The notes under the pieces: model-generated
What the model was told of the DNA's origin: nothing
The model's input: only the letters and a program-made list of their open reading frames with translations
The model's database searches: none
Source of the DNA: Gloeocapsopsis sp. IPPAS B-1203
Lineage (GTDB): Bacteria; Cyanobacteriota; Cyanobacteriia; Cyanobacteriales; Chroococcidiopsidaceae
DNA: 64,000 bases
Assembly: GCF_002749975.1 (NCBI RefSeq)
Contig: NZ_PEIG01000005.1
Coordinates: 248,001-312,000, forward strand
Direction of reading: 5' to 3'
In this document: in pieces, positions 29,771 through 48,165 of the stretch
Position numbering within the stretch: the stretch's first letter is position 1
How the letters are laid out: the number at the start of each line of letters is the position of its first letter
Translations under genes and position numbers: made by a program

Positions 29771-30049
29771 ATGGCATTTATTAGAATTGAAAATATTGTC
29801 ATCAATACCAATTACATTGCTGCGATTAAACTCGATAACCAAACTATTGCTGGAGAAAGTAGTGTTTCTATATTAATGGCTACTCCGAAACTCCCTTTGT
29901 TTCAGATTGAAGGTGCTTTTCCCAATCATTATCACTATGAATGGATTGATTTTGTCGGTAGGGAAGCCAAGGCACTTCAAGATTACTTCACGAGCTTCAA
30001 TAATGTGATCGACCTACTACCACAGCACTGTAAAGTTAACGAGATGTAA
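29771..30049 (+). CDS. Small conserved hypothetical protein
   Basis: A 92-residue protein beginning MAFIRIENIVINTNYIAAIKL. The frame extends upstream to 29693, but the ATG at 29771 is preceded by a plausible AGGG ribosome site and starts the well-structured part. The N-terminal half is beta-rich and resembles short cyanobacterial proteins that open with a residue pattern for a small barrel. The C-terminal half has a helix (GREAKALQDYFTSFNNVIDLL). No function is known. It ends 78 bases before the polyketide synthase gene and runs in the same direction, so it may be the first gene of that transcript. Confidence 0.6.
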   Translation: MAFIRIENIVINTNYIAAIKLDNQTIAGESSVSILMATPKLPLFQIEGAFPNHYHYEWIDFVGREAKALQDYFTSFNNVIDLLPQHCKVNEM

Positions 30050-30127: not shown

Positions 30128-33100
30128 ATGTTTGCCTGCAATATTACTGTCGCTTTAACACAGTTACAAAACGAAATTAGAAACTGTGAAACAGCATTGA
30201 TGAAGCTAATACAAAAGAAAAAAAGCATGGCTGAAAAAGTATTAGAACCGGACACCATCAATACTCAACTTCAAAAAAATCCGATTGCCATCATCGGGAT
30301 GGCATCCTTATTTCCGCAGTCAAGAAATACCCAGCAATACTGGCAAAAAATTATTGAAAAAGTAGATTGTATTACCGACGTGCCACCTTCGCGGTGGGAT
30401 GTTGATACGTACTACGATCCAAATCCAAGGGCACCGGATAAAACCTATTGCAAACGTGGTGGATTTATTCCAGATATTGATTTTAACCCGATGGAATTTG
30501 GGCTGCCACCTAATATCTTAGAAGTCACAGACGTTTCTCAGTTGCTTGGCTTAGTGGTTGCTAAAGAAGCAATGGAAGATGCAGGCTATGATGAAAAGCG
30601 GCAGTTTAATCGCGATCGCACTGGAGTTGTTTTAGGTGTTGCCTTAGCAAGACAGTTAGCAATGCCATTAGGTGCGAGACTGCAATATCCCGTCTGGGAA
30701 AAAGCCTTAAAAAGCAGCGGGTTATCTGATGCAGATACCCAAAAAGTGATTGACAAAATTAAAAGCGCTTACGTTAATTGGGAAGAAAACGCCTTTCCAG
30801 GAATGCTGGCTAACGTTGTCAGTGGACGAATTGCCAATCGCCTTGATTTTGGTGGAACCAACTGTGTTGTCGATGCAGCTTGTGCGAGTTCCCTAGGTGC
30901 GTTGCGCATGGCAATGAGTGAGTTACTCGAACATCGCTGCGACATGATGCTGACGGGCGGTGTAGATACCGATAACTCAATTGTCGCGTATATGTGCTTT
31001 AGTAAAACTCCCGCAGTATCTCCTAGCGAAAACGTCAAACCTTTCGATGCAGAATCGGATGGCATGATGTTAGGCGAAGGTGTTGGGATGATCGTTCTCA
31101 AGCGCCTTGCTGATGCTGAACGTGACGGCGACAAAATTTATGCTGTGATTAAAGGCATTGGCACTTCCAGCGATGGCAAATATAAAAGTATCTATGCGCC
31201 ACGCCCTGAAGGACAAGTCCGCGCCTTGCGCCGCGCTTATGAAGATGCTGGCTGTTCTCCTGCAAGTGTTGGCTTGATCGAAGCCCACGGTACAGGAACA
31301 ATGGCAGGAGATCCGACTGAGTTTAGTGCCTTAAAAGCCTTTTTTGAGGAAACAAACATTGGTAAGCAAAAAATTGCTCTTGGTAGTGTCAAATCACAAA
31401 TTGGACACACTAAAGCCGCCGCAGGTGCAGCAAGTTTAATTAAAACTGCTTTAGCACTGCATCATAAAGTTTTACCGCCGACAATCAACGTCACGAAGCC
31501 GAATCCAAAATTAAAAATTGAAGATTCACCCTTTTATCTCAATACCGAAACTCGCCCTTGGTTGCCAGGAGATACGCCGCGACGGGCTGGAGTGAGTTCT
31601 TTTGGATTTGGTGGCACAAATTATCACGTTGTTTTAGAAGAATATACCAAAGAACACAATAACTATCCTTACCGCCTCCATCAAGCGCCTCAAATTGTGT
31701 TGCTATCAGCAGCAACGCCAGAACAATTACAGCACAAGTGTGCAGATTTACTCGCAAAATTGCAAGGTGAAGCTTCAGAACAATATTTTACCCAAGTTGT
31801 TGCAGCATCACGAACACTAAAAATTCCAGTCACAGATGCGCGTCTTGGTTTTGTTGCTAATTCGGCTACGGAAGCGATCGCCTTATTGCAAATCAGTGTT
31901 GAGCAACTCAAAAATAATGTAGCTGATTGGGAACATCCCCAAGGCATTTATTACAGACGTAGCGGAATTGATTCTACAGGTAAAGTCGTCGCCTTATTTT
32001 CTGGACAAGGTTCGCAATACCTTGAGATGGGTAAGGAATTGGCACTAAATTTTCCTTGCTTGCGCCAGGTATATCACCAGATGGATAACCTGTTAAGCAA
32101 AGATGGGTTGCAACCGATTTCTGATGTTGTGTTTCCGCCGCCAGTATTTGATAACGCCCAACGCCAAAAGCAGCAGGAAGCATTGCAGCGCACAGAATAC
32201 GCCCAGCCAGCAATTGGAGTCTTTAGTGCGGGATTATATAAGATATTACAGCAAGCTGGATTTAAACCTGATTTTGTTGCTGGACATAGTTTTGGTGAAT
32301 TAACTGCACTGTGGGCAGCAGAAGTATTAAGCGATGAAGATTACTTGGCGCTTGTCAAAGCGAGAGGACAGGCGATGGCGACTCCCAAAGAAACCGACTT
32401 TGATGCTGGGGCGATGCTTGCTGTCAAGGGGGATGTTAGTCAAGTAACGACATTAATTAAACAGTTTCCCTTAGTTACAATCGCTAACTTCAACTCAACC
32501 AAGCAAATCGTTTTAGCAGGAACTAAGCCAGAAATTACCCAAGTACAACAGGCTTTAAATGGACAAGGCTTCTCGACAGTTGTCTTACCAGTTGCCGCAG
32601 CCTTTCATACTCCCTTAGTCAGTTACGCCCAAAAACCTTTTGCCCACGCAATTGAAGCAACGCGCTTTCAAGAACCAAAAACTTCGGTTTACTCGAATGT
32701 AACTGGCAAAGCGTATCCCAAAGAACCCCAGACAATTCAAAAAATTCTTAAAGAACACTTACTCAATTCGGTGTTGTTTAAGGATCAGATCGAGAATATC
32801 TATGCAAGTGGTGGTTATTTCTTTGTTGAATTTGGACCTAGAAATATTCTGACTAATTTAGTCAAAGATACACTTGGCGATCGCCCCCACTTAGCTGTTG
32901 CCATTAATGCACACAAACAACAAAATAGCGATCGCACTCTGCGATCGGCCGTTGTACAATTGCGTGTTGCAGGATTGTCTCTAGGAGACATCGATCCTTA
33001 TCAACTAGAATCGAAAATACCCCAAGTTCAAGGAAATAAAGCACTCAATGTCCGCCTAAATAGTGCTAACTACATCTCGGAAAAAACACAAACCGCATTC

Positions 33101-35161
33101 GCGCAAGCTTTAGCAGAGACACACGTTGTTTCAAGTGCGATCTCCACTACAACTACACCCGCGCCAACATCAGCAACAAACGGACATCATTCCCAACCAG
33201 TAGCTGCTTCCAGTCAACCTGAACCAAAGACTGTTGCAGCAACACCACCGTCACCACAACCAGTAGCAGTAGATTACCAAAAAATGTTGGACAGTATTGA
33301 GTCCTCCCTGACACAGTTTAACGATCATCACGGTGACATCTTACAAGTCCACGAACAATCGCTGAAACATCAAACTGAATACGCCCAAACCTTCTATCAA
33401 CTCACCCAGCAGCAATCATTACTTACCAACCAAAATGAGGCAACTAGAGATAGCTTAGAACGCAGCATGATGCGGTTTCACGATCATCAAGCGGAAACTT
33501 TGCGCATTCACGAACAATATCTGCAACAGCAGATGGAACATACACATAGTTTCTTTGAACTGATCGAGCAAAAATATGAATCTGTTATTGAAGGAGGTAC
33601 AACAAAAGAAGCATTGAGTCCAACGCCTGTCAGCAATGGAAACGGACATCAAGCTAATGGTAATGGTACTACATTAGTTGAAATCGCGTCTGTACCTCAA
33701 ACCCAGGAACCACAACAAATCCCTGAAACCGCATCTGTTGTTGTACCTCCTGTTGAACCTGCACCTGAAATCAATGTTGTTGATTTAAGTCAAACACTGC
33801 TGAATGTGGTGAGTGACAAGACAGGGTATCCAGTTGAAATGCTGGAGTTAGAAATGGATATGGAAGCAGATTTAGGCATTGATTCGATTAAGCGCGTGGA
33901 AATATTAGGCGCACTGCTGGAACTCAATCCAAGCTTACCCCAACCAAATCCTGAAGAACTCACCGAACTGCGTACCCTCGGTCAAATTGCCGAGTATATG
34001 GGTAATATTGCTACAGGGCTTTCCCTAAAAACTGTTGAAGTCTCCACAGTAGAGGAAGTGAGTCATGATGCATCTACTACACCAGTAACACCGATTCCTG
34101 AAAGCTCTCCAACAGAACAATTAACTTCAGTACCCGAAACGTCAATTGATGTTGCTAATTTAAGTCAAACACTGCTGAATGTGGTGAGTGACAAGACAGG
34201 GTATCCAGTCGAAATGCTGGAGTTAGAAATGGATATGGAGGCAGATTTAGGCATTGATTCGATTAAGCGCGTAGAAATATTAGGCGCACTGCTGGAACTC
34301 AATCCAGGCTTACCCCAACCAAATCCTGAAGAACTCGCCGAACTGCGTACCCTCGGTCAAATTGCCGAGTATATGGGTAATATTGCAGGAAATTTAACAG
34401 AAGAGGAGATACTGCCAAAAAAGCAGGATAGCGGGGAACCAGAGACAAACCACAATATTATCCGCAGTGTGGTGAAATTAAAAGTTCTACCGCCTCCCGA
34501 TCGCTTAGAATGCAGTTTACCCCAGCAGCACGTATGCTTAATTACTGATGATGGTTCAGCGCTAACGACACAATTAGCCCAAGCTTTGACTGCAAAAGGG
34601 GAAAAAGTTGTCGTTTTAAGTTTTCCTGAATCCGTAATTGCCCAAAGAGCAAATGTAGATGATAATATTGCGCGCATTCTCTTAGAGGACTTGACAGAAA
34701 CTCGTCTGCAACAACTCAAAGAATTACAATATGGTTCGATTGGCACTTTTATTCACCTCCACCCTGCTATTGACAACGGCGAGGAAATTGCTAATCTCAA
34801 CTCGGAAACTGCTTTACTCAAACACATTTTCCTACTTGCCAAATATCTCAAAGAACCACTCAATCAAGCTGCAAGTCAAGGACGCAGTTGTTTTGTCACC
34901 GTAACTCATCTTGACGGCGAATTGGGAATTGGACAAAAAACAAACTACAGTGCGATCGCTGGTGGCTTGTTTGGACTTACCAAAACACTCAATCAAGAAT
35001 GGGAATCGGTATTCTGTCGCGCAATTGACATTAGTACTGACATTGATGCCCAACAAGCTGTCAAACATATCCTCGCAGAAATTCAAGATCCTAATCGTTT
35101 AATCAGTGAAGTAGGCTACGGCGCTAAAGGGAGAGTCACGTTAGAGAGTTATGAGTTTTGA
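30128..35161 (+). CDS. HglE/PfaA-type polyketide synthase (KS-AT-ACP-ACP, plus structural half of KR)
   Basis: A 1677-residue iterative type I synthase of the heterocyst-glycolipid/PUFA class. Order: N-terminal coil (5-35), ketosynthase (50-500) with Cys252 in DAACASSLG, His387 in EAHGTGT and His427 in GHTKAA; acyltransferase (about 615-940) with Ser721 in GHSFGE; a low-complexity linker with two copies of a helical HEQxL motif (about 1055-1160); two carrier domains with LGIDSIK serines 1253 and 1378; and a ketoreductase-like structural subdomain (about 1455-1670, TDDGSALTTQLAQAL, GGLFGLTKTLNQEW). The protein stops at EVGYGAKGRVTLESYEF, inside a repeat array, while the catalytic KR continues in the next gene. 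It condenses malonyl units into a long chain. Confidence 0.88.
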   Translation: MFACNITVALTQLQNEIRNCETALMKLIQKKKSMAEKVLEPDTINTQLQKNPIAIIGMASLFPQSRNTQQYWQKIIEKVDCITDVPPSRWDVDTYYDPNPRAPDKTYCKRGGFIPDIDFNPMEFGLPPNILEVTDVSQLLGLVVAKEAMEDAGYDEKRQFNRDRTGVVLGVALARQLAMPLGARLQYPVWEKALKSSGLSDADTQKVIDKIKSAYVNWEENAFPGMLANVVSGRIANRLDFGGTNCVVDAACASSLGALRMAMSELLEHRCDMMLTGGVDTDNSIVAYMCFSKTPAVSPSENVKPFDAESDGMMLGEGVGMIVLKRLADAERDGDKIYAVIKGIGTSSDGKYKSIYAPRPEGQVRALRRAYEDAGCSPASVGLIEAHGTGTMAGDPTEFSALKAFFEETNIGKQKIALGSVKSQIGHTKAAAGAASLIKTALALHHKVLPPTINVTKPNPKLKIEDSPFYLNTETRPWLPGDTPRRAGVSSFGFGGTNYHVVLEEYTKEHNNYPYRLHQAPQIVLLSAATPEQLQHKCADLLAKLQGEASEQYFTQVVAASRTLKIPVTDARLGFVANSATEAIALLQISVEQLKNNVADWEHPQGIYYRRSGIDSTGKVVALFSGQGSQYLEMGKELALNFPCLRQVYHQMDNLLSKDGLQPISDVVFPPPVFDNAQRQKQQEALQRTEYAQPAIGVFSAGLYKILQQAGFKPDFVAGHSFGELTALWAAEVLSDEDYLALVKARGQAMATPKETDFDAGAMLAVKGDVSQVTTLIKQFPLVTIANFNSTKQIVLAGTKPEITQVQQALNGQGFSTVVLPVAAAFHTPLVSYAQKPFAHAIEATRFQEPKTSVYSNVTGKAYPKEPQTIQKILKEHLLNSVLFKDQIENIYASGGYFFVEFGPRNILTNLVKDTLGDRPHLAVAINAHKQQNSDRTLRSAVVQLRVAGLSLGDIDPYQLESKIPQVQGNKALNVRLNSANYISEKTQTAFAQALAETHVVSSAISTTTTPAPTSATNGHHSQPVAASSQPEPKTVAATPPSPQPVAVDYQKMLDSIESSLTQFNDHHGDILQVHEQSLKHQTEYAQTFYQLTQQQSLLTNQNEATRDSLERSMMRFHDHQAETLRIHEQYLQQQMEHTHSFFELIEQKYESVIEGGTTKEALSPTPVSNGNGHQANGNGTTLVEIASVPQTQEPQQIPETASVVVPPVEPAPEINVVDLSQTLLNVVSDKTGYPVEMLELEMDMEADLGIDSIKRVEILGALLELNPSLPQPNPEELTELRTLGQIAEYMGNIATGLSLKTVEVSTVEEVSHDASTTPVTPIPESSPTEQLTSVPETSIDVANLSQTLLNVVSDKTGYPVEMLELEMDMEADLGIDSIKRVEILGALLELNPGLPQPNPEELAELRTLGQIAEYMGNIAGNLTEEEILPKKQDSGEPETNHNIIRSVVKLKVLPPPDRLECSLPQQHVCLITDDGSALTTQLAQALTAKGEKVVVLSFPESVIAQRANVDDNIARILLEDLTETRLQQLKELQYGSIGTFIHLHPAIDNGEEIANLNSETALLKHIFLLAKYLKEPLNQAASQGRSCFVTVTHLDGELGIGQKTNYSAIAGGLFGLTKTLNQEWESVFCRAIDISTDIDAQQAVKHILAEIQDPNRLISEVGYGAKGRVTLESYEF
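33782..34386 (+). repeat. Near-identical tandem ACP-coding repeats
   Basis: Copies of 230 bp at 33782-34011 and 34157-34386 (period 375 bp) differ at six positions by direct reading. They encode the two carrier domains of the synthase. Identity at silent positions shows recent duplication or gene conversion. Confidence 0.9.
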
Positions 35162-35480
35162 GTTATGAGTTTTGAGTTTAAGAGAGTCGTGAAGTGTTGA
35201 GTTTAAGAGAGTTTTGAGTTATGAGTTTTGAGTTTAAGAGAGTTATGAATGTTGAGTCGTGAAGTGTTGAGTTAAGAAAATTCTTTTAATGATTGCCTCC
35301 GGCACACTGACGCGAACAAAACTCAAAACTAATCACTAGCCACTAATAATTCAAAACTCAAAACTCAAAACTAATCACTAGCTACTAATAATTCAAAACT
35401 CAAAACTCAAAACTAATCACTAGCTACTAATAATTCAAAACTCAAAATTCAAAACTCAAAACTAATCACTAGCTACTTAT
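35147..35480. repeat. Long fold-back repeat array splitting the KR module
   Basis: Left part: tgagttttgagttatgag-type units with aagagag and gtcgtgaagtgttgag variants. Middle: attgcctccggcacactgac. Right part: three 42-bp direct repeats starting at 35348, 35390 and 35432, made of aattcaaaactcaaaact units followed by aatcactagctacta. Left and right arms are complementary, so the RNA could form a long hairpin. The upstream gene ends 15 bases into the array and the downstream gene begins just after it. Confidence 0.85.
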
Positions 35481-35498
35481 CAAACTGGGAATAAACTT

Positions 35499-37187
35499 AT
35501 GAAAAGCCAGGTTGACTCAAATTCTGTATTTCTTGTCAGCGGTGGTGCTAAGGGAATAACTGCACAGTGCGTTATTGAATTAGCCAAAGCGAAGCAATGC
35601 AAATTTATGATCTTGGGACGTTCTTCTCCTTCACCAGAACCTGTTTGGGCGATGGGATGCCATGATGAAGCTGAACTTAAAAAGCGAATTATGGAGTATT
35701 TGGTTGCTAGTGGAGAAAAACCAACTCCAGTTATGGTGCAGAAACAGTATAAGGCGATCGCATCTTCCCGCGAAATTCAAGCAACTCTCAATGCAATTGA
35801 ACAAGCTGGTAGCAAAGCGGAGTATTTCAGCGTTGATGTCACTGATACAGAGGCTTTACAAGCTATTGCCGATCGCTTAACAGCAGTTACCGGAATTATT
35901 CACGGTGCAGGTAATTTAGCTGATAAGCGCATTGAGAAAAAGACTTCTGAAGATTTTGATACTGTTTATGCTGCTAAAGTGACAGGCTTAGCAAATCTGT
36001 TGCGTTATATTCCTGCAAGTCAATTACAGCAATTAATATTGTTTTCTTCTGTTGCTGGGTTTTACGGTAATGTCGGACAAGCTGATTATGCGATCGCCAA
36101 CGAAATTCTCAATAAATCAGCCCATCTCGTAAAATATCATCACCCTGATTGTCATGTTGTTGCCATCAATTGGGGACCTTGGGATAGTGGGATGGTGAGT
36201 CCTGAATTGAAAAAAGCATTTGCCGAACGTAATATTGAGACGATTCCGATTCAAGTTGGTGCCAAAATGCTTGTAGAAGAACTTGAATCAACTCATCAAG
36301 CACCCCAAATTATTGTTGGTAGTCCTCTTGTCTTTTCTGAAAGCTTCAGTTCACAACTTCAAACTTTTTGTATCCAGCGCCATCTAACTGTAGATGCTAA
36401 TCCATTTTTGCAAGATCATGTTATTGCAAATCGCCCAGTTCTTCCGGCAACTTGTGCCATAGCTTGGATTGCAAATACTTGCGAACAACTCTATCCTGGT
36501 TATCAGTTTTCTAACTGCCGAAATTACAAAGTTTTGAAAGGAATTATTTTTGAACCCACTACTCCAACTGAATATACTTTAGAATTACAAGAAACTAACA
36601 AAAACAACATAGAAGTTGAGTTTGATGCTAAAATTTGGAGTAAGAATTTAGCAGGAAAAACTCGCTATCATTTCAGCACGCAGTTAACTCTAAAACGTCA
36701 AATACCTTCAAGTTCTGATTACGCTTCTATTAACCTAAATCTCGATCAAAGTTATTCTAATCAACCGTCTTTCTATCAAGATGGTACGGCAAGCTTATTT
36801 CATGGAAGAAGTTTTCAAGGAGTTAAGCAAGTTCTCAACATTACTCCAGAAAAAGTCACCATTGAATGTCTACTTCCCAGTCTCAATGAACAACAACAAG
36901 GACAATTTCCAGTACAAACATTTAATCCATATATTGTAGATGTACAAATTCATTCTTTATGGATTTGGTCACAATATTTTCATCAGCAAGGTTGTTTACC
37001 TTCAGCAATTAATATTTACGAGCAATTTATTCCCGTTCCTTTTGATGAAACATTTTATGTTTCTTGTGAAATCAAATCTAAAACTGATAGTGCAGTAATA
37101 GCTGAAGTTGTTACTCACGATAGTCAGGGAAAGGTGTACTCGCGAATGACTGAAGCAAAGGGAACTTTATTACCTAAAAGTAAATAA
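35499..37187 (+). CDS. Ketoreductase-dehydratase protein of the HGL/PUFA-like synthase
   Basis: A 562-residue protein. Residues 10-275 form the catalytic ketoreductase subdomain: NADPH loop SGGAKGITAQC, and Ser184 and Tyr197 in LFSSVAGFYGNVGQADYAIAN, the S-x12-Y pair, plus INWGPWDSGMV. Residues about 290-555 look like a PfaA/HglE-type dehydratase hotdog domain with His307 in FLQDHVIANRPVLPA, where the usual Gly of HxxxGxxxxP is Asn. It reduces and dehydrates the beta-keto intermediate. It begins exactly where a PfaA-like protein would continue after the structural KR part encoded by the previous gene, 337 bases away and in another frame. A standalone KR-DH protein is comparable to HglD-like proteins. 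The next gene is 50 bases downstream. Confidence 0.82.
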   Translation: MKSQVDSNSVFLVSGGAKGITAQCVIELAKAKQCKFMILGRSSPSPEPVWAMGCHDEAELKKRIMEYLVASGEKPTPVMVQKQYKAIASSREIQATLNAIEQAGSKAEYFSVDVTDTEALQAIADRLTAVTGIIHGAGNLADKRIEKKTSEDFDTVYAAKVTGLANLLRYIPASQLQQLILFSSVAGFYGNVGQADYAIANEILNKSAHLVKYHHPDCHVVAINWGPWDSGMVSPELKKAFAERNIETIPIQVGAKMLVEELESTHQAPQIIVGSPLVFSESFSSQLQTFCIQRHLTVDANPFLQDHVIANRPVLPATCAIAWIANTCEQLYPGYQFSNCRNYKVLKGIIFEPTTPTEYTLELQETNKNNIEVEFDAKIWSKNLAGKTRYHFSTQLTLKRQIPSSSDYASINLNLDQSYSNQPSFYQDGTASLFHGRSFQGVKQVLNITPEKVTIECLLPSLNEQQQGQFPVQTFNPYIVDVQIHSLWIWSQYFHQQGCLPSAINIYEQFIPVPFDETFYVSCEIKSKTDSAVIAEVVTHDSQGKVYSRMTEAKGTLLPKSK

Positions 37188-37237
37188 CTAAACGAACCTG
37201 ATTAGGTATAAAGAAATACTCTAAGGAGTAAAGGTAT

Positions 37238-40200
37238 ATGAAATTGACGCAAAAACAAGCTCCCAAAATAGCGATTACTGGGATGAGTTTGATTGCAGGT
37301 TCTTGCCTAGATTTGGATAGTTTTGAACGAACTATTTATGAAGGGAACCAAAATTTTATTGAGTTACCTCAAAACCGTTGGCAAGGTAAAATAGACTTTC
37401 TCCAAGAGTATCAAGAGCACAACAAGCAAGCATCTGTAGGAGGTTATCTTCCAGAATCTGTCATAGATTTTCAGCAAAATCAGCAGCTATCGGATGAGAT
37501 AGAAGAATTGAGTCCTCAAGAACTATTGATGCTCAAAGTAGCGGATAGTGCATTGAAAGATGCTGCAATTAAGGAGGGGGCAAAAGTAGCAGTAATTATT
37601 GCTACAGCAACTCAAATTTCGCTACAAAAACTCTATAGTAAACAGCAGTTTTCTCGACAACTACAAACAATTTTCACTGGAAAAAGTACAACTAGCGATC
37701 TTGAATCATTTGAGCGTTATGGTCGCTGTAACTTACAAAGTGAATATCGTAGCCCAATAGAAAACACGATCGCCAGTCGAATTTCTGCTTTGTGGCAATT
37801 TGAAGCACCAGCATTTACACTGACAGCTGAAGAAAATTCCGCATTTAAAGCACTAGAAGTTGCTCAAAATCTACTGATGCTTGGAGAAGTTGATGCGGTT
37901 GTTGTTGGTGCAGTAGATTTAGCTGGTAGTAGTGAAAGTGTGTTATTACGCAATCAGCTAGTCAAGATTAATACAGGCGCGAAAACTTTAAGTTACGACA
38001 AAAATGCCAATGGTTGGATCGTTGGCGAAGGTTCAGGGGCGGTTGTTTTAAAGTTACATGATGCAATTGAACAAGGCGATCGCATCTACGCCATCATTGA
38101 TACCATCAGCTTACTACCACAAACTTCATCGTGCGACTCTGCCGCAGTTACGCAAGTTTGTCAACGTGCTTTTCAAATTGCAGATATTGAACCCAAAGAC
38201 ATTGGCTATCTTGAAGTTCATGGAAGTGGAGTAGAGGTAGAAGATACCGCAGAAATTGCAGGTTTGCTAACAGCATATCAAACCATACCTAAACTAAATT
38301 GCGCGATCGGTAGTGTGAAATCTAATGTTGGACACACCTATGCAGCATCTGAAATTATTAGTTTAATTAAAACGGCACTTTGTCTCTACTACCGTTATAT
38401 TCCTGCTACACCGCAGTGGAGTAGTCCTAAAAACCCCGAATGGCAAGATATATTTTATGTTGCAACAGAATCTCGACCTTGGTTTAGTGCCTCAGACAAG
38501 CCAAGACGTGCTGCAATTAATAGTATTTCCCTAGATGGTAGCTACGCTCATATCATTTTATCAGAAGAAACAAGCAAAACTAATCTGACTCGCTTCTACG
38601 CAGACGGGAATAGATATTTAACTCAAATGCCATTTTATCTATTTGCGATCGCCGCTGACAATCGTAGCGATTTAATGGCTCAGTTACATAGTCTAGAGCA
38701 AAATATTGAGAGTTGTACCTCTTTAACTGCTGCTGCAAGTCAAACTTTTAGCACTTTTCAAAAGCAATCGAATGCAACGTATGCTCTAGCAATTCTGGGA
38801 CGTAATAAAAATGACTTATTACGAGAAATTCAACGGGCATTGACAGGCATAGAACGTGCCTTTGAGCAAGGAGCAGATTGGCAATCTCCTGTAGGTAGTT
38901 ATTTTACAGCAAATCCTTTAGGAAAAAAAGGTGCGATCGCTTACGTTTATCCTAGTGCATATAACTCCTACATTGGTATTAGCAGAAACCTGTTTCGCTT
39001 ATTTCCTCAAATTTACGACGATACTGTCATTAAAAATGCTTATAGCCGTGTTGCTAGTATTGAAAGACTCTTATATCCCCGCAGTTTACGTAAATTATCT
39101 AAAAGACAATTAGAAGACATTGAACAGCAATTGCTTAATAACCCCATTGCCATGCTGGAATCAGAAATGGGATATGCGGGGCTGATGACGACAATCTTCA
39201 AAAATTACTTTCAAATCAAGCCACAATACAGTTTTGGTTACAGTTTAGGCGAAACTAGCATGATGTTTTCTCAAGGCGTCTGGACTGATTTTCAAAAATG
39301 TAGTAATGCTTTGAATTCTTCCTCTTTGTTTAGTAGTCGTCTTGCTGGATCTAAAAATGCAGTTCGTGAATTTTGGGGACTACCAACGGTAGAAAAACAA
39401 GACGCCGATTTCTGGAGTACATATGTTTTAATGACTCCTGTCGCTGATGTTCAAGAAGTTATTAAACAAGAAGAGCGAGTTTATTTAACTCAAATTAGTA
39501 CTCCCAAAGAATGCATTATTGCTGGAGAAACAAAAGCTTGTTTGCAAGTAATTGAAAAGTTGAAGTGCGATGCCTTTCGTGCTCCATTTAATCACGTCAT
39601 TCACTGTGAGGCAATGCGATCGGAATATCCAGAACTTGTACGAATTAAAACCTTACCAGTGCAAAATATTCCAGAAACCGTCTTTTATTCGTCTGCTCAA
39701 TATGCACCAATAACTCTGGAGAGTGAATCGATTGCCCACCATATCGCTAAATGTTTGTGCCAACAAGTTGATTTCCCACGATTAGTTAATCGCGTTTATG
39801 CAGATAACGTCAAAATCTTTATCGAAGTAGGTGCAGGAAGTAATTGTTCGCGCTGGATTAGCGAAATACTCAAAGATCAAGAACACCTCACAGTATCAGT
39901 TAACCGTAGAGGTGTAGACGATCATGCTGCAATTCTTAAAGCACTTGCTAAGCTTGTTAGCCATCGAGTCTCGTTAGATTTGTCGCCACTATATACGCGA
40001 TCGCCAAATAATTTAAGTAGCGATCAATTGTTGACATCAGCTACTTCAACAACACAACAAAATTCATTAAACTCATCTGCAACTGTTACTTTTTCACCTT
40101 TGAATGAAGACGAGCAAAGTCAAGTTGAGTTACATACCTTAGATACTTCAGTTAATCAAAATATCAAATCAGAGCCGCCAACTATGCAAGTATTACAGCA

Positions 40201-40546: not shown

Positions 40547-40572
40547 TTGTTAGTTTGCGAGGGTTAACAGAC

Positions 40573-42216
40573 GTGGTTAGCGTAAATCCAGCCGTAAATA
40601 AGAGCGATCGCCTTAAATTCGTAGGTACATCAACTCAAGCCTGGTACGGTTCATTAAATTCAGTTGCGTTTGATGAAGCAGGAATCAAAGCTAAACTTTT
40701 GAATTTAGCTCAACCTTGCTATGTTGTGCGCTCGAATAATCAAATTGGCGTTACTAATGAAGGTTACACTTACACAGCCAATAATGGTAATAAACAAGCA
40801 GAACTATTAGCTGCGACTCCTCCTTTATCAACCAAACAACTAGGTGATGCGAGTTTCTTAGACTTTCATCAGGTAAAATACGCCTACGCTACAGGTGCAA
40901 TGGCACATGGAATCGCTTCGGAAGAACTAGCGATCGCCTTGGGAAAAGCAAAAATATTAAGTTCCTTTGGTGCAGGAGGCTTGTCTCCAGCGCGTGTAGA
41001 ATCTGCCATTAATCGCATTCAGCAAGCATTACCTCACGGACCTTACGCTTTTAATTTACTGCATAGCCCTAGCGAACCTGCAATCGAACGACGCGCCGTC
41101 GATTTGTATCTTAAATACGGCGTCACAACAGTAGAAGCTTCAGCTTTTCTTGACTTAACTCCCAATGTTGTTTACTATCGCGCTGCTGGATTAGGTCTTG
41201 ACTCTCACAATCAAATTACAATTAAGAATAAATTAATTGTCAAACTTTCGCGCAAAGAAATAGCGATAAAATTTCTTCAACCTGCTCCTACAAAAATTCT
41301 TAAAGAATTAGTTGCCCAAAATCTCATTACTGAATTACAAGCTACTTTAGCAGAAAAAATTCCTGTTGCTGATGATATTACTGTAGAGGCTGATTCTGGC
41401 GGTCATACTGATAATCGACCTCTCGTTTGTCTACTACCATCAATTTTAGAATTACGCGATGAAATTCAAGAAAAATATCATTATCAACAACCTGTTCGAG
41501 TAGGTGTTGCTGGTGGAATTTCTACACCTCAATCTGCACTTGCTGCTTTTATGATGGGTGCTGCTTATGTTGTTACGGGTTCTGTAAATCAATCGTGTGT
41601 AGAAGCTGGAACTTCACAACACACAAAAGAGTTACTAGCACAAGCAGAAATGCCAGATGTCATGATGGCTCCTGCAGCAGATATGTTTGAAATGGGTGTA
41701 AAACTGCAAGTTTTAAAAAGAGGCACACTATTTCCTGTACGCGCCCAAAAATTATATGAACTCTATAAAAATTACGATTCAATTGATGATATCCCTGCAG
41801 TAGAAAGAGACAAACTAGAAAAGCAAATCTTTCGCAGAAGTTTAGACGCAGTTTGGCAAGATACTGTTGCCTATGTATCGACAAGAAATCCAGACAAAGT
41901 TCGTAAGGCAGCGAACAATCCTAAATTAAAAATGTCGTTGATTTTCCGTTGGTATTTAGGATTATCTTCGCGTTGGTCTAATTCTGGCGAAAAAGGTCGA
42001 GAAATTGATTATCAAATCTGGTGTGGACCTGCAATGGGGAGTTTTAACGATTGGGTTAAAGGCTCTTATTTGAGTGAACCAAGTAATCGTAAAGTTGTTG
42101 ATGTTGCTGACCACATTATGCTCGGAGCAGCATATTTATACCGTATCCAAAACTTAAAAATGCAAGGCTTGCAATTATCAAATTTCTCTAATCAGTATCA
42201 GCCATTTCCACTTTAA
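40573..42216 (+). CDS. PfaD family enoyl reductase
   Basis: A 547-residue FMN-dependent enoyl reductase of the PfaD/nitronate-monooxygenase TIM-barrel type. Recognisable spans: QPCYVVRSNNQIGVTNEG, ATGAMAHGIASEELAIALGKA, LSSFGAGGLSPARVE, EADSGGHTDNRPLVCLLP, VGVAGGISTPQSALAAFMMGAAYVVTGSVNQ and IDYQIWCGPAMGSFNDWVKGS. PfaD works in trans to reduce double bonds made by PUFA and HGL-type synthases. A GTG at 40573 with GCGAGGG nine bases before it is the likely start; the frame is also open from a TTG at 40555. It is 26 bases after the CLF-AT gene, in the same operon. Confidence 0.88.
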   Translation: MVSVNPAVNKSDRLKFVGTSTQAWYGSLNSVAFDEAGIKAKLLNLAQPCYVVRSNNQIGVTNEGYTYTANNGNKQAELLAATPPLSTKQLGDASFLDFHQVKYAYATGAMAHGIASEELAIALGKAKILSSFGAGGLSPARVESAINRIQQALPHGPYAFNLLHSPSEPAIERRAVDLYLKYGVTTVEASAFLDLTPNVVYYRAAGLGLDSHNQITIKNKLIVKLSRKEIAIKFLQPAPTKILKELVAQNLITELQATLAEKIPVADDITVEADSGGHTDNRPLVCLLPSILELRDEIQEKYHYQQPVRVGVAGGISTPQSALAAFMMGAAYVVTGSVNQSCVEAGTSQHTKELLAQAEMPDVMMAPAADMFEMGVKLQVLKRGTLFPVRAQKLYELYKNYDSIDDIPAVERDKLEKQIFRRSLDAVWQDTVAYVSTRNPDKVRKAANNPKLKMSLIFRWYLGLSSRWSNSGEKGREIDYQIWCGPAMGSFNDWVKGSYLSEPSNRKVVDVADHIMLGAAYLYRIQNLKMQGLQLSNFSNQYQPFPL

Positions 42217-42230
42217 TTAAAGGTACTTAA

Positions 42231-42530
42231 ATGAGCCAATCGCAATCAAAAACTGTCAAACTATATACTCCAGAAGAAATACAAGCTTGGCTAGTTGCGC
42301 GTATTTCAGAACAATTAGGAATCGCACCTGACGAAATAGATATTCGAGAACCGTTAGATAGCTATGGTTTAGATTCAGCTAAAGCTATGCTGATGGCAAG
42401 TCAAGCAGAAAAGCTATTGGGATTTCAGTTGTCACCTATATTACTCTGGCATTATCCAACAATAGAGGCACTTTCTCAACGACTGGCAGAAGAATCAGAA
42501 GATTCTGAATCCGAGATTTTCGAGATTTAA
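42231..42530 (+). CDS. Free-standing acyl carrier protein
   Basis: A 99-residue carrier protein: helix 1 EEIQAWLVARISEQLGI, the phosphopantetheine serine in YGLDSAKAM, and SPILLWHYPTIEALSQRLAEE. The GLDS motif and the LLWHYPT end are more like ACPs partnered with acyl-AMP ligases and type I synthases than like fatty acid ACP or the LGIDS tandem ACPs in the first protein. It may hold the chain for release or tailoring by the following proteins. It lies 14 bases after the enoyl reductase gene. The acidic tail ESEDSESEIFEI may be a docking segment. Confidence 0.88.
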   Translation: MSQSQSKTVKLYTPEEIQAWLVARISEQLGIAPDEIDIREPLDSYGLDSAKAMLMASQAEKLLGFQLSPILLWHYPTIEALSQRLAEESEDSESEIFEI

Positions 42531-42568
42531 TCCTTTAAAAATTTTAATGATTGAGAAATACTTTAATT

Positions 42569-44419
42569 ATGAACGCGTCTGAACTATTGACAAATCTCAC
42601 TCGGCAAGGTGTAGAAATACAACTTAATAACGATAAGCTAAATATCCGTTCTACTAAAGGAGTCTTGACACCAGAAATCCGTGCAGAACTGACGGCGCGG
42701 AAAGCTGAAATTATGACATTACTGCGTCAACAGGAAATTGAGACTGCTTCTGTCTGTAGTTTTAGTAATGGATTGAGTTTACAAACTATTGGGTGTTTAA
42801 TTAGTGGTTCTCATCAGCAATCAGTTTTAGATTTTAAACCGCCAATTATTAATCCTAAGAGTATGGCGCAAAAGCTAACAGTAACATTTAAGCCTTTGCC
42901 CAAGGGTTACGATAAGAAACAAATTATTCAATTTAGAGAAGAGTTAGAAAACACCCTACAGAAACATGGGGTGAATGTTATCTCTTGGCAACAAGCAACA
43001 AAAGATTTTCGTTACGAGTTTACTGTACCAATATTCAAATGGAAAAAAAGTATTACTAGTCGAGTTGTTAAAATTGGCGTTGATGCTGTTATTGATGTTG
43101 AAAGACACTATTCTTATCTGAGAAAGGTAGGCATATTTTTTGTAGAGAAGATTTACGAAGTTTACTCGCGTTTAGCTAAGCAGCAACTTTCTGTTTCTAG
43201 AATTGCTCAACTAAGTAGCTGGGCTGAAGAACACGCAGCTAAATACATTGAAGATCCCACAAATACACAAGTTATTGTACTAACGAAATTTAATAAAAAG
43301 CTCACACATCCTGAGATACCGTATACAAGTAAAATCAAAATTGGTTTAAACACTTTAGTTAGAACTTTCTCTGAAATAGTTTTGGGTGTTTCGAGCCAAC
43401 AAATTTCTATACTAAATATGAATCTATCAGATTCTACGTATCCTAGAGAAGAAATAGATAAGTTCGTTTTAAACTCGTTAATTCCTAAAGTTTTTGTCCC
43501 AATTTTCCCCTTACCACTGAGCCGATTTCAAATCGGGGAATACGATCCAAATACATCGTCCTATGCAGCACAGTTAGTAAAACTTGGTAATGAGCTAGCA
43601 GCAACAGGTTTATTTCCGCCAGGTTCTAAATTGAGTCAAGTTATCAAACGAAAATCTCATCGAGATATTGTTAATGTCATTGTTAATGGAAGAACAGGCG
43701 TTTCGTATGGCTTTGTTGCTTATGCAGAGGCTCCTCAATACTATGGTGCGGTAGAAATTCATGCAGATGAGTGGGCAAATTTATATTCGGTTGAAGGCTT
43801 TGGTGTTGATGAAGTACGCCAAAATGAATTTGGTAGACGCTACGTTCGACTACAAGTAGGTGGACAAGATTTCTACAAGCAAATTCCTGATATTTGGCTA
43901 GTTAGTTCGCGTTCAGGTGCAAACAAAACTGATTTAGATCTAAAAACTGATGTGCTGCGAGTTGGTTTGAAAGAAAAGTTATATCTACAGCTACCACATG
44001 GAACCGATTTAGAAACAGCAGACATTAAACCTTCCTACGATATTTATGTGATGCTTGCGATCGCACTTGCTGCTGCGTTGTACACTCCAAAACTTATTCA
44101 AAATGGTGCACCTATTGTTCATTTTCATGGTTATCCTGCAAGTGACTGGCTGCTACCAAATGAGTATTGTGTTGGCGTCAATAATCCTTCAGTACCATGC
44201 GGTACATATGAATCTGGAGTATTTAACTTCTTAGGTATCTCCAGCTTGGCACAACGCGCAGAACATATCTCTTTAATCAGTTTGATTGAACCTGATCATG
44301 GAACAAATGTTATCTCCCACGATTTGCAACACTTAGTTAATAGATTGAAAGCTGGTTGTGAAACTAAGTTAATCGAGTTAGGCGGAAAACACTTTACTTC
44401 TTTGAAGAATTTAGATTGA
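42569..44419 (+). CDS. Protein with N-terminal TubC docking domain and unrecognised body
   Basis: A 616-residue protein. Residues 1-50 (ELLTNLTRQGVEIQLNNDKL, STKGVLTPEIRAELTARKAEI) match the TubC N-terminal docking domain that normally sits in front of NRPS or PKS modules and binds the tail of the upstream protein. The remaining 560 residues match nothing I recognise. They include a helical region (about 165-235), a segment rich in hydrophobic strands, PIVHFHGYPASDWLLPNEYC, and Cys residues near 540-550, and no adenylation, condensation or KS motif. The docking domain puts it physically on the carrier-protein assembly, so a role in release, tailoring or transfer of the chain is a reasonable inference. 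The start is the ATG at 42569 rather than TTG 42551. Confidence 0.65.
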   Translation: MNASELLTNLTRQGVEIQLNNDKLNIRSTKGVLTPEIRAELTARKAEIMTLLRQQEIETASVCSFSNGLSLQTIGCLISGSHQQSVLDFKPPIINPKSMAQKLTVTFKPLPKGYDKKQIIQFREELENTLQKHGVNVISWQQATKDFRYEFTVPIFKWKKSITSRVVKIGVDAVIDVERHYSYLRKVGIFFVEKIYEVYSRLAKQQLSVSRIAQLSSWAEEHAAKYIEDPTNTQVIVLTKFNKKLTHPEIPYTSKIKIGLNTLVRTFSEIVLGVSSQQISILNMNLSDSTYPREEIDKFVLNSLIPKVFVPIFPLPLSRFQIGEYDPNTSSYAAQLVKLGNELAATGLFPPGSKLSQVIKRKSHRDIVNVIVNGRTGVSYGFVAYAEAPQYYGAVEIHADEWANLYSVEGFGVDEVRQNEFGRRYVRLQVGGQDFYKQIPDIWLVSSRSGANKTDLDLKTDVLRVGLKEKLYLQLPHGTDLETADIKPSYDIYVMLAIALAAALYTPKLIQNGAPIVHFHGYPASDWLLPNEYCVGVNNPSVPCGTYESGVFNFLGISSLAQRAEHISLISLIEPDHGTNVISHDLQHLVNRLKAGCETKLIELGGKHFTSLKNLD

Positions 44420-44432
44420 TTCCCAAAAGCGC

Positions 44433-45263
44433 ATGATACAGTCCATTGCAGGAAAAACAGTTGTTTTGACGGGTGCCTCTGGTGGTATTGGTTTATACAT
44501 TGCTCGCGCGTTAGCAAAAGAACAAGCAACTGTAGTCAGTATTTCACGTTCAATTCAAAGACTAGAAACAGTCGATGCTGAAGTTAAAGCTTTAGGCAGT
44601 AAAAGCATAATTATTCCCTTTGATCTCACTAATTTACAAGAGTTACCTGTATTAGGACAGCAAATCAATCAGCTTGCAGGTTCAGTCGATATTTTAATTA
44701 ACAACGCAGCTGTAGAAACATGCCAGGCGTTTAAAAATTCCTCTTTAGCAGACAATCAATCAATGTTGTTAACTAATCTACAAGCACCAATCGAGTTAAC
44801 TCGTTTACTGTTACCAAATATGATACGGCAAGGCATCGGTCACATTGTGAATATTGCATCTTTAGCTGGTAAAAAAGGAACTCCCTACAACAGTATTTAC
44901 TCAGCTAGTAAGGCAGGTTTAATTATGTGGTCAGATGCCATACGACAAGAATTATCTGGTACTCAAGTAGGTGTTTCAATGATTTGCCCAGGATACGTTT
45001 CAGCAGGAATGTTCTTAAGAACAACAGTTCCTGTACCAAAATTTGCTGGTATTTCTACACCATCTGAGGTAGCAATAGCAACTATTAAAGCTATTCAACA
45101 TAATAAAGCAGAAGTAATTGTAGGCAGCAGCTTTTCTAGGATTTTGTATGCAGTAGAACAACTTTCTCCAGAATTTGCAGACGCTATTTATCGTTGGATG
45201 GGTGTAGCAAAGTTAAATCAAAAGCGTGCCGAAAATCAACGACATACTGAAAAGCTTGTTTGA
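44433..45263 (+). CDS. Short-chain dehydrogenase/reductase
   Basis: A 276-residue SDR with TGASGGIG (NAD(P) loop), LINNAAVET, the catalytic Ser in NIASLAG and Y-x3-K in YSASKAG, then CPGYVSAGM. Length and motifs fit classical SDRs such as HetN-like and ketoacyl reductases that sit in HGL clusters. The start is 13 bases after the previous gene and 10 bases before the GMC gene. It could reduce a ketone or aldehyde of the product. C-terminal residues about 225-260 may associate with membrane (SRILYAVEQLSPEFADAIYRW), as in lipid-acting SDRs. Confidence 0.86.
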   Translation: MIQSIAGKTVVLTGASGGIGLYIARALAKEQATVVSISRSIQRLETVDAEVKALGSKSIIIPFDLTNLQELPVLGQQINQLAGSVDILINNAAVETCQAFKNSSLADNQSMLLTNLQAPIELTRLLLPNMIRQGIGHIVNIASLAGKKGTPYNSIYSASKAGLIMWSDAIRQELSGTQVGVSMICPGYVSAGMFLRTTVPVPKFAGISTPSEVAIATIKAIQHNKAEVIVGSSFSRILYAVEQLSPEFADAIYRWMGVAKLNQKRAENQRHTEKLV

Positions 45264-45273
45264 ATAAATAACA

Positions 45274-46815
45274 ATGGTTGATAACCGTTACGATATTATT
45301 ATTATTGGCACGGGTGCTGGTGGCGGAACATTAGCAAATCGATTAGTGCCAAGTGGTAAAAATATTTTGCTACTAGAACGAGGTACTTTTCTTCCACAAG
45401 AAAAGGCTAATTGGGATGCTAAACAAGTTCTCCAAAACGAACGATATCGTACTTCTGAAGTTTGGTATGATAAAAATGGCAAAGCCATGCGTCCAGGAAC
45501 TAGCTATTATGTTGGTGGAAATACAAAAGTATATGGTGGTGCTTTATTACGATTTCGAGAAAAAGACTTTGAAGAAGTCACTCATAAAGGCGGTATTTCT
45601 CCAGAATGGCCACTAAAATATCGTGACTTTGCACCCTATTACGACCAAGCAGAAAAACTTTATGAAGTGCATGGTAAAAGAGGGCTAGATCCTACAGAAC
45701 CACCAACAAACGAAGAATATCCTTTTCCAGCAGTTAGCCACGAATCACTTGTCCAAGATATTCACGATGCATTAAAAGATAGAGGATTACACCCGTTTCA
45801 CTTACCTCTTGGTATTAAACTTAATGAAGTTAACCCGTTTTTGAGTTCTTGTATTCGCTGCGATACTTGTGATGGCTTTCCTTGCTTTATTAATGCCAAA
45901 GCTGATGCTGATGTTAATGCTGTCCGTCCAGTAATGGCTTATCAAAATCTAACTTTACTTACCGAAGCAAAAGTTTTACGGCTACATACTAGTGCGTCTG
46001 GGCGTGAAGTCACTCAGGTAGAAACAGAAATTTCGGGTAAGCATCTCCTATTTTCTGCTGATATTGTTGTTGTGGCTTGTGGTGCTATTAACTCAGCACT
46101 CTTATTACTTAAATCTGCTAACGACAAACATCCAAACGGATTAGCAAATAGTTCTCATCTAGTGGGATGTAATTATATGACACATCATAATGGGGCAATT
46201 ATTGCTTTAACAACAAAATCCAATCCAACAATTTTTCAAAAAACATTAGCTGTCCATGATTTTTACTGGGGTGACAAAGATTTTGTTTATCCTATGGGTG
46301 CTGTGCAGTTACTTGGCAATGTAAATGGAGAACGACTTGCTGCTCATGGACCGCCTTTTGTACCTAGCTTTTTATTCGATATTGTAGCAAAACATTCTTT
46401 AGCTTGGTGGTTAATGACTGAAGATCTCCCAACTATAAATAACCAGGTATTTATTAAAAACAATAAGGTCTTTCTTCATTATAAAAATAACAACATTGAA
46501 GCGTTTAACCGTTTATTATACCGCTGGACTGAAGAGCTAAAGATTATTTTTAAGAAATATGCTTTCTCTCCATTTTCTTTTTATCTTAGAAATCAAATTG
46601 CTTTAAGAGAGGTTGGGCATCAATGCGGTACATGCTGCTTTGGCTTAGATCCCAAAAAATCGGTACTCGACCTTAATTGTCGCACTCATGATGTTAGCAA
46701 TTTATATGTTGTTGATAGCAGTTTTTTCCCTTCTAGTGCTGCTTTAAATCCATCATTGACGATTATGGCAAACGCTCTACGTGTAGGAGAGCATTTATTA
46801 GAAATATTGAAATAA
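45274..46815 (+). CDS. GMC family oxidoreductase
   Basis: A 513-residue flavoprotein with the FAD-binding IIGTGAGGGTLANRL at about 10-25, YYVGGNTKVYGGALLRFRE, SALLLLKSA, and the C-terminal SLTIMANALRVGEHLLE typical of glucose-methanol-choline oxidoreductases. Cysteine-rich segments CIRCDTCDGFPC and QCGTCCFGLD suggest bound iron-sulfur or disulfides, as in the long-chain-alcohol and sugar oxidoreductase branch. In this locus it may oxidise an alcohol, or a sugar on the glycolipid. It is 10 bases after the SDR gene. Confidence 0.86.
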   Translation: MVDNRYDIIIIGTGAGGGTLANRLVPSGKNILLLERGTFLPQEKANWDAKQVLQNERYRTSEVWYDKNGKAMRPGTSYYVGGNTKVYGGALLRFREKDFEEVTHKGGISPEWPLKYRDFAPYYDQAEKLYEVHGKRGLDPTEPPTNEEYPFPAVSHESLVQDIHDALKDRGLHPFHLPLGIKLNEVNPFLSSCIRCDTCDGFPCFINAKADADVNAVRPVMAYQNLTLLTEAKVLRLHTSASGREVTQVETEISGKHLLFSADIVVVACGAINSALLLLKSANDKHPNGLANSSHLVGCNYMTHHNGAIIALTTKSNPTIFQKTLAVHDFYWGDKDFVYPMGAVQLLGNVNGERLAAHGPPFVPSFLFDIVAKHSLAWWLMTEDLPTINNQVFIKNNKVFLHYKNNNIEAFNRLLYRWTEELKIIFKKYAFSPFSFYLRNQIALREVGHQCGTCCFGLDPKKSVLDLNCRTHDVSNLYVVDSSFFPSSAALNPSLTIMANALRVGEHLLEILK

Positions 46816-46849
46816 CCTTGTCTGAAGTCTAATCGAGAAGGTGACTCGA

Positions 46850-48157
46850 ATGAAATATATTTCACTACAAACCGAACAGCAGAAAAATTTACAATACGAT
46901 GTAGGATGTGTTCTATCATACCGAGAATTAATTAATGATAGAACAAATAGCAAACTTGATGACACGCGAGTATTAGGAGTTGTTGCTGCCGGAAGAGATG
47001 CAAATAATTACTTGCCTTACACAATTCCCCAAACGATTAAACAAATTTCTGCAATGGGGTTGGGTGCGGATATTGTTATTGGATTGAACAATGGGTTTGA
47101 CTGTCCATCAGTTATAGAACAGTTTAAATTATTAGCCAATGTACAAGTTATTTTATTATATACAGGAGAAAAATTAGCTAATAATACGCCAGCACAAATA
47201 TTTGATAATTCTCAGGCAGAAGGTACACCATATTGTGTGAATAACTTATGCGCACCTTTACTACATAGAATCTTCATCGTATATCAAAAACAAGGAATAC
47301 ACTCCCCTGGCAAAATACGTGTTTTAGGAGATATTTATGGTTTACTTTTAAGTAGTATAAAATGCGGTTGGATACCACCAGCAATCTTAGTTGCTTTTGA
47401 CGCTGAATCTCACTTTTTAGTTAGCGATCGCACATTACATCTTCAATTAGGTTCAGATGGCTTAGGTCTAATAATTAAGAAGCTGCACAATCATCAAGAC
47501 ATAGATCTACTAGGAGCAAACAATAGGTATGTTGTTTATCATCCCATTACAATAGAGGGTAATAAAGTTTTTGTCCCTGCTTTTTCTGAGGAACTACCTC
47601 CAATTCAGTGGTTTCTAAACCTACTACATGGTAGCTACGCAGGTTATCAATACAAACCTGCAAGTTGCACAGTTGGTAAGACTGATGTCATGATCAGTTT
47701 GTTTACTGTCATTGCTCAAAGATATCCAGGAGCAAGGCTTGATGATGTTCACCTCACTATATTGGCTAAAAATGCAGGCTTTCGGGGTGATATATTTATG
47801 GATATCACATCTACTAATAGAGTCCCTAGTCCTACAGAACTTGCAAGCGATCAACAACTACAATTTGCTTGGAAAGAACAGGTTTATAGATGGATTGCTG
47901 GATTATATGCTTTAGAATTTAACTATGGTAAACATTATGTTACGCCAATTTGTACTGCTTATTTTCCCTTTAATGTTGTATTAAACCCCATAACTTTTTT
48001 AAATCGATTTAGAAAAGCAGAAAAACTCACTTTAGATAATATATTTAAGAAAGTAGTGTTATTGTTATCTGCTGCCATAGCATTTATTCAAATCAAAAGA
48101 AAAGCATCAAATGAGCCTGATATTCTTCAAGGTTCTCAAGCTAAAGCTTCTTGGTAA
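46850..48157 (+). CDS. Putative glycosyltransferase-like protein
   Basis: A 435-residue protein. The opening VLGVVAAGRDANNYLPYTIPQTIKQI and DIVIGLNNGFD, with VAFDAESHFL in the middle, has the rhythm of a GT-A type glycosyltransferase, including a candidate DxE metal site. A second acidic site is LDDVHL near residue 300. There is one hydrophobic C-terminal stretch (FKKVVLLLSAAIAFIQIK) that may anchor the protein. I could not place it in a named family. ATG 46850 with GAGAAGG nine bases before is chosen over GTG 46841. In a polyketide glycolipid locus a sugar transferase is expected, and this is the only candidate. It meets the convergent alcohol dehydrogenase gene after 8 bases. Confidence 0.45.
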   Translation: MKYISLQTEQQKNLQYDVGCVLSYRELINDRTNSKLDDTRVLGVVAAGRDANNYLPYTIPQTIKQISAMGLGADIVIGLNNGFDCPSVIEQFKLLANVQVILLYTGEKLANNTPAQIFDNSQAEGTPYCVNNLCAPLLHRIFIVYQKQGIHSPGKIRVLGDIYGLLLSSIKCGWIPPAILVAFDAESHFLVSDRTLHLQLGSDGLGLIIKKLHNHQDIDLLGANNRYVVYHPITIEGNKVFVPAFSEELPPIQWFLNLLHGSYAGYQYKPASCTVGKTDVMISLFTVIAQRYPGARLDDVHLTILAKNAGFRGDIFMDITSTNRVPSPTELASDQQLQFAWKEQVYRWIAGLYALEFNYGKHYVTPICTAYFPFNVVLNPITFLNRFRKAEKLTLDNIFKKVVLLLSAAIAFIQIKRKASNEPDILQGSQAKASW

Positions 48158-48165
48158 AGTTTGAA

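Follow-up and report, generated by a model that had tools for sequence, protein, structure and literature searches.

The window analysed here is a 64,000-nucleotide stretch of Gloeocapsopsis sp. IPPAS B-1203 (positions 248,001 to 312,000 of contig NZ_PEIG01000005.1, C5 in our numbering, of a 5.9-Mb genome), and its central feature is a run of nine plus-strand genes, A–I. Genes A–D encode a synthase of the type that makes heterocyst glycolipids (hgl) or polyunsaturated fatty acids (PUFA), and are followed by a free acyl carrier protein (ACP), E, and by a protein, F, that databases leave unnamed or misname. Our tentative reading, which falls somewhat short of probable, is that E and F form a finishing pair on this synthase, in which F likely docks on the tail of E and would release the lipid by metal-dependent C–C bond chemistry. 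What the sequence shows is the order of the genes, a docking domain in F, a conserved tail on E, the invariant PSYD/HFH/DHG motifs in F and E–F beside two types of synthase; the folds of F and of the last protein, I, are predictions.

Domain scans assigned A (30128..35161) to an HglE-type iterative synthase with ketosynthase (KS), acyltransferase (AT) and two ACP domains, which retains the KS Cys/His and AT GHS residues. B (35499..37187) comprises ketoreductase (KR) and dehydratase (DH) domains. C (37238..40546) combines a chain-length factor (CLF) with a weak AT, is of HglC/PfaB type and lacks the KS cysteine, which fits a CLF. D (40555..42216) is a PfaD-type enoyl reductase and the sole PfaD found in the genome. 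An earlier note, made from the letters alone, had described the one-strand order KS-AT-ACP-ACP, KR-DH, CLF-AT, PfaD, ACP, TubC protein, short-chain dehydrogenase (SDR) and GMC oxidoreductase, and gene coordinates and domain scans bore this out. All of A–H could be assigned to families, F by its TubC_N domain alone, and I matched none in Pfam.

A tailed carrier and its probable docking partner

Protein E (42231..42530, plus strand) is a stand-alone ACP that ends in SESEIFEI (42504..42527), a putative docking motif for F. The downstream protein F (42551..44419, plus strand) starts with a TubC_N β-hairpin docking domain (42581..42730; PF18563, 1.9e-17) that matched the docking domain of AerJ (8aqq), continues with an unassigned middle part and ends in a predicted class II aldolase-fold domain (43544..44416). 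TubC_N domains are of the type that binds such C-terminal tails (PMC9113145; here and below, cited papers are represented by the parts of their text available to us), and one was present at the N-terminus of all 43 relatives of F scanned.

A pattern scan with F over 84,980 species genomes, which reaches close relatives only, yielded 30 loci, all in records with cyanobacterial names. The carrier preceding F was a free ACP of one cluster in 28 of them and the C-terminal ACP of a polyketide synthase (PKS) in the other two; in five loci (L017, L018, L020, L022 and L042) a PapA-like gene lay between ACP and F. The tail pattern E-x(0-3)-[FLI]-[EQ]-[ILV], followed by no more than one residue and typically read as SESEIFEI, was found in 30/30 carriers, in none of eight sister ACPs of the same cluster and in none of 434 other proteins of the loci. 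As the pattern was written after viewing those 30 tails, the better test is that on previously unseen loci, of which nine out of ten carried it (17/18 overall in that scan), with L153 among the ten being a close relative of L023. Together, these sequence features make it very likely that F docks on the conserved tail of E, and the single exception, L147, whose tail does not fit the pattern, counts against this. L153 (G199:C1:2267555-2269178) also has a PfaD beside F in two open pieces, with the longer match crossing seven stops, so that the core of this locus may be decaying.

The fold of F was assigned by structure prediction and comparison, and a second structural look with VIA-align gave rows spanning residues 326–616 only. 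The predicted fold is that of the class II aldolases FucA, RhaD, AraD and MtnB, as well as of NovR and pyruvic oxime dioxygenase, and F shares with the aldolases the motif order PSx[DE], HxH, HG. Its PSYD (44030..44041) is colinear with their PSxE acid motif and comparable to KPSAE in MtnB-like proteins, HFHGYP (44120..44137) holds the putative HxH metal ligands and EPDHG (44288..44302) the putative third metal histidine; all three motifs are invariant in 43/43 relatives. Unlike the class II aldolases, F has a docking domain and some 265 further residues ahead of the aldolase-like part. Several results weigh against our reading: F had no Pfam match to Aldolase_II (PF00596) even at E 10, profile–profile comparison with six class II aldolases in hhalign gave no match, both profiles being thin, and residues 60–325 are without an assigned fold.

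The view that F is a piece of a nonribosomal peptide synthetase, as some databases name it, was discarded, with the docking domain as the sole Pfam family found in the protein. A search with the N-terminal part alone returned 33 homologous proteins, 19 of which list the same docking domain and the rest no domain; several are annotated as partial. Literature searches gave no match for TubC N-terminal docking and, for a docking domain combined with an aldolase, unrelated papers only among the matches listed. A functional parallel is the release of enacyloxin by a docked stand-alone condensation domain (6cgo; PMC9113145), which likewise combines a stand-alone enzyme, a β-hairpin docking domain and a carrier tail, but in F the catalytic domain is predicted to be class II aldolase-like.

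Two synthase types and the proposed chemistry

In a sample of 388 genomes of the class, F was detected in 31 (E <= 1e-20) and PfaD in 47 (E <= 1e-50), and comparison of the two genome lists placed PfaD less than 10 kb from F in 22 of the 31. The earlier note had treated the tailoring genes as a set; comparison with the neighbourhoods of other genomes upheld this for the TubC protein F, which recurs with the core and forms with E the conserved part, and contradicted it for the GMC and SDR genes, which are not conserved with the core across 45 F loci. Neighbour counts such as these depend on contig ends and similarity labels, and leave out G014, G001 and L148.

A second kind of synthase bears the same pair. 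In the F tree, the proteins of 17 modular-PKS loci are split by one branch (100/99) from those of 25 hgl/PUFA-type and two unassigned loci. Within the stretches compared, the modular loci encode a fatty acyl-AMP ligase (FAAL), an ACP, a weakly AurF-like protein and at least one PKS module, then E–F, followed by an SDR, glycosyltransferases, methyltransferases and, in some, a galactopyranose mutase. What is conserved across the F loci is the tailed carrier E plus F, and because relatives of F recur beside this second synthase, F is probably a finishing tool shared by two lipid-building machines. Several modular loci also hold a CylK homologue (2e-131 to CylK); nine F genomes of the class sample have no PfaD nearby, and in six of these (G076, G104, G304, G312, G395 and G405) a CylK homologue lay less than 12 kb from F on the same contig; CylK homologues also occurred in many genomes without F (28 CylK genomes overall). 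CylC halogenases are weakly AurF-like. The AurF match of the CylC-like protein was sub-threshold and a search of PDB sequences found no relative, both of which weigh against our reading. Of the names used here, CylC-like, DevBCA, HglB-like and MtnB-like were given by similarity or recall, and CylK alone was matched to a named structure.

The PKS preceding F has lost the AT serine in 17/17 modular loci and the first KS histidine in eight, the other nine reading HAVGT, whereas comparable upstream modules retain both residues in 7/7 cases (L009 and L010, which did not align on the KS, are left out of the KS comparison). By Pfam, no KR was found in six scanned last modules, nor in L037. A last module unable to load an extender is best read as handing its chain over to E, and the dead AT of this module lends separate support to E as a hand-over point. 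The nine HAVGT-type loci show no further labelled PKS gene within the stretch compared, so that a fatty acyl chain may reach E unextended and F would need to make the head group. Hence the preference here for C–C bond formation with a small enediolate, followed by SDR reduction.

The proposed route would thus start with a long chain built by A–D and moved to E. F would bind a metal through its three invariant histidines, turn a small hydroxycarbonyl donor (dihydroxyacetone phosphate in the case of class II aldolases) into an enediolate and acylate it with the E-bound chain to give an α-hydroxyketone. The SDR G would reduce this to a vicinal diol, the glycosyltransferase I would add a sugar, the GMC enzyme H would oxidise the product or its sugar, and a DevABC-like exporter would move it out. 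Such a route would be a nitrogen-free counterpart of sphingolipid logic, in which an acyl chain is joined to a small carbanion, followed by an SDR and glycosylation.

The main chemical rival, which we consider improbable, draws on the oxygen chemistry of NovR and pyruvic oxime dioxygenase, enzymes of the same fold: F would excise the thioester carbon of an E-bound β-keto chain to give an odd-chain 2-oxoaldehyde, from which two SDRs would make a 1,2-diol. The lost AT serine of the modular last modules means that a β-keto chain on E would need a trans-AT, and the loci without another labelled PKS seem to offer nothing to excise from a plain fatty acid. It is yet more doubtful that F acts on the sugar or head group, as an epimerase or sugar-phosphate aldolase that docking merely keeps near the assembly line: the fold does include ribulose-phosphate epimerase and sugar-phosphate aldolases, and the sugar genes of F loci are varied, but these genes differ between loci in which docking domain and carrier tail stay the same.

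For the modular loci, the published comparison is with the nostochlorosides of Nostoc punctiforme, chlorinated glycolipids built from palmitate, in which a C21 tail is attached via a vicinal diol (PMC10849952, the sole paper that a literature search for nostochloroside found). The odd C21 length is there put down to cleavage of a larger PKS product, through transformations called uncharacterized, and the ngl cluster includes a FAAL, homologues of CylC and CylK, and a KS inactivated by a mutation in its active site (KS*). The modular F loci share with ngl the FAAL, the weakly AurF/CylC-like protein, CylK, PKS and glycosyltransferase, and the eight last modules without the first KS histidine may be set beside its KS*. 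The window differs from ngl in its iterative hgl-type core; no FAAL, CylC-type halogenase or CylK was found among the genes of its locus, nor CylK in its genome at E 1e-40. The link between ngl and F is putative; the published nglO primer matched 0/217 genomes, which speaks against our reading, and the words TubC and aldolase do not appear in the available main text of PMC10849952.

The wider proposition, in three parts held jointly, is speculative and in our estimate doubtful. Its first part is that F founds a new class of chain release, in which a docked class II aldolase joins the chain to a small enediolate and so gives odd-carbon, nitrogen-free sphingoid-like heads. The second is that the E–F(–SDR) module is common to hgl-type islands and nostochloroside-type clusters, which would explain the odd C21 vicinal-diol tail, and the third concerns the ancestry of the hgl loci (below). 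If true, a widespread protein annotated as 'hypothetical' or 'non-ribosomal peptide synthase' would become a concrete, assayable release enzyme, the published puzzle of an odd C21 tail on a vicinal diol would gain a candidate gene, and lipid biomarkers could be tied to genes. The genomic rule suggested is that the ACP-thioester reductase HglB leads to even-chain 1,3-diols and E–F to another head group, with loci having either or both.

The five loci with a gene for a PapA-like condensation protein (L017, L018, L020, L022 and L042) also encode an uncharacterised 433-aa protein and a 2Fe-2S ferredoxin. They may correspond to the CylC clusters that PMC8406957 calls 'nitronate monooxygenase-containing', whose product is unknown and which have PKSI, ferredoxin, ACP and glycosyltransferase in common with them; the likeness would hold if the 'nitronate monooxygenase' is a PfaD. 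A docking/aldolase protein is not named in the available text on those clusters.

The tailoring genes of the window follow F directly. G (44433..45263, plus strand) is an SDR (adh_short, 3e-51), H (45274..46815, plus strand) a GMC oxidoreductase 66–71% identical to the GMC genes of modular F loci, and both resemble the SDR/GMC genes found there. An SDR of the cluster of G follows F in 16/17 modular loci, as G does in the window. In the comparison of 45 F loci, no hgl/PUFA-type locus other than that of the window is labelled with an SDR immediately behind F, and none other has a GMC gene in the stretch compared, by which a conserved GMC + SDR set with this core was ruled out; SDRs of the same cluster lie further downstream in L022, L029 and L014 (the core of L014 not being in the stretch). 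That the SDR does not usually follow F in hgl/PUFA-type loci is a point against the proposed route, as is the lack of a labelled glycosyltransferase among the genes listed downstream in 17/45 loci (three of them without room); the other 28 have one. The earlier note had called the last gene, I (46841..48157, plus strand), glycosyltransferase-like, and this label is compatible with its predicted GT-A fold; the protein is probably a membrane-associated glycosyltransferase. Pfam gave no match, GT2 included, at E 10. A 748-residue version of I is present at L083–L084 (G007:C1), with the length of the database protein P0136, which also has GT2 domains.

Distance from heterocyst glycolipid loci and a probable block exchange

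The core enzymes of the window are of the HglE/D/C/A type by domain scans, so that the homology to hgl proposed in the earlier note holds, as does its suspicion of a distinct pathway. The KS-AT-ACP-ACP, KR-DH, CLF-AT, PfaD core is shared with the heterocyst hgl locus, type F of Shulse and Allen (PMC3098273). In contrast to that locus, HglB does not follow PfaD in the window, where the gap between D and E is just 14 bp. All seven PfaD loci of order-level relatives that are not beside F have HglB directly after PfaD and no E/F; four of them come from genomes that also hold an F locus, and there the hgl and F loci are separate. Outside the order, three further non-F PfaD loci (L138 and L152, both of G038, and L149 of G182) are not of hgl order type and have no F; L138 and L152 lack HglB; in L149, HglB is present and is followed by genes for a methyltransferase, an ACP and a PKS and by a gene like I.

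A tree of 35 PfaDs, drawn with a midpoint root only, joined the seven hgl rows in one branch (99/98) with the window PfaD outside it. The window PfaD grouped with that of L013 (100/98), the locus of Gloeocapsopsis crepidinum LEGE 06123, and the F-linked PfaD of Komarekiella was sister to the hgl branch (100/98). If the two distant G038 genes serve as the outside, the hgl branch falls within the F-linked rows. The trees leave out G014, G001, L148 and the window copy WIN, which share their genomes with L013, L030, L033 and the window query, respectively. The placement of the hgl branch agrees with published work in which hgl islands are older than heterocysts (PMC11804610). The third part of the wider, doubtful proposition is that the hgl loci would go back to an F-bearing ancestor, from which E–F was lost and HglB retained. 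The window as a true hgl locus was ruled out by the absence of HglB and by its PfaD lying outside the hgl clade. A full hgl set elsewhere in the genome was checked for, and with a single PfaD no second set is visible by that test. Loss of HglB by recombination between its ACP part and E was likewise discarded: two DNA alignments revealed no clear switch favouring HglB, and in its middle and 3′ part the window E is closer to the E of a relative than to the start of HglB.

The distinctness of the core is largely already in print. hgl islands of non-heterocystous strains, including the sister species G. crepidinum LEGE 06123, have been published together with C24 1,3-diols and their glycosides from that strain and from Pleurocapsales LEGE 10410 (our L041), and the authors speculate that the island makes these lipids (PMC11804610). 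The islands share the core genes and an hgdBC-type exporter with the window, lie outside the heterocyst cluster, in agreement with our PfaD tree, and are all reported to lack the glucosyltransferase HglT. The paper requires at least seven hgl-gene homologues for an island; the window, with its core and hgdABC-like genes, may reach this number. The window differs in having no thioester reductase and in an E–F–SDR–GMC–glycosyltransferase block that was probably exchanged, and the words TubC, docking and aldolase are absent from the main text as available to us.

Against this background, the locus might make the published heterocyst glycolipid analogues, i.e. the C24 1,3-diols and glycosides, with a reductase acting in trans for release and E–F in a minor or regulatory part. 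We regard this as unlikely, though it has substance: the core is 95–97% identical to that of G. crepidinum LEGE 06123, a maker of such lipids (PMC11804610), and thioester reductase domains elsewhere in the genome could serve for release. However, the two strong matches lie inside larger open frames and are 43–46% identical to HglB, the window retains E–F without HglB, G. crepidinum having HglB as well, and E–F persists in modular PKS clusters of a non-hgl kind. On our main reading, the window strain, being without HglB, would depend on the E–F route. HglB is kept alongside F in five loci (L013, L033, L041, G011 and G012) and two such strains make even-chain 1,3-diols (PMC11804610), so F is not needed for those, which tells against release by F. 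A separate modular PKS cluster with a thioester reductase domain, at 50000–95000 of contig C4 (L009–L011), is unrelated to the finding.

The relation to G. crepidinum, the closest genome and of the same genus, is not uniform along the locus. By blastn, the window and L013 are 93–96% identical over the core and 95% over 48114–51206, but just 74% over E–F, and G, H and I have no counterpart; the opposite interval of L013 holds HglB, an ABC exporter, a sulfotransferase, GT2, GT4 and a methyltransferase. PfaD pairs the window with L013, whereas the F tree joins L013 to G011 and G012 and leaves the window outside (100/100). This conflict and the drop in identity are best read as exchange of an E–I block (42160..48114, ends approximate). 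In the congener G015, the alcohol dehydrogenase that lies downstream is present (93%), the 30 kb around it contain no labelled core gene, and no PfaD was found. G012 and L013 differ from G011 (L082), where a sulfotransferase-like piece of 91 residues is all that is labelled between F and GT2, with no ABC gene, which suggests decay in G011.

Exporter and neighbouring genes

A DevBCA-type HlyD–FtsX–ABC set lies just upstream of the core (23303–26623) in divergent orientation. On the minus strand it comprises a DevA/HgdA-like ABC ATPase (23303..23992; 79% to cluster 25, ABC_tran), a DevC/HgdC-like FtsX permease (24069..25241; 67% to cluster 24, FtsX) and a DevB/HgdB-like HlyD membrane-fusion protein (25436..26623; 52% to cluster 23, HlyD). 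The HlyD gene occupies the same place in G014, G012, G011 and G007, and FtsX in G012 and G011, where the stretches compared end. Between this set and the core are plus-strand genes for a 443-aa ParB_N-domain protein (27743–29074) and a 118-aa protein (29693–30049), both kept at the same place in G014, G012, G011 and G007 (67–99%).

Short repeats in the A–B intergenic region (35160–35463) have matches at several sites of the sister locus L013, with related hits at 6810–6884 and 51819–51853 of the window. Beyond the exporter, at 22059–23099 on the minus strand, are two small genes that by eye resemble those for a PIN-domain toxin and a helix-turn-helix partner.

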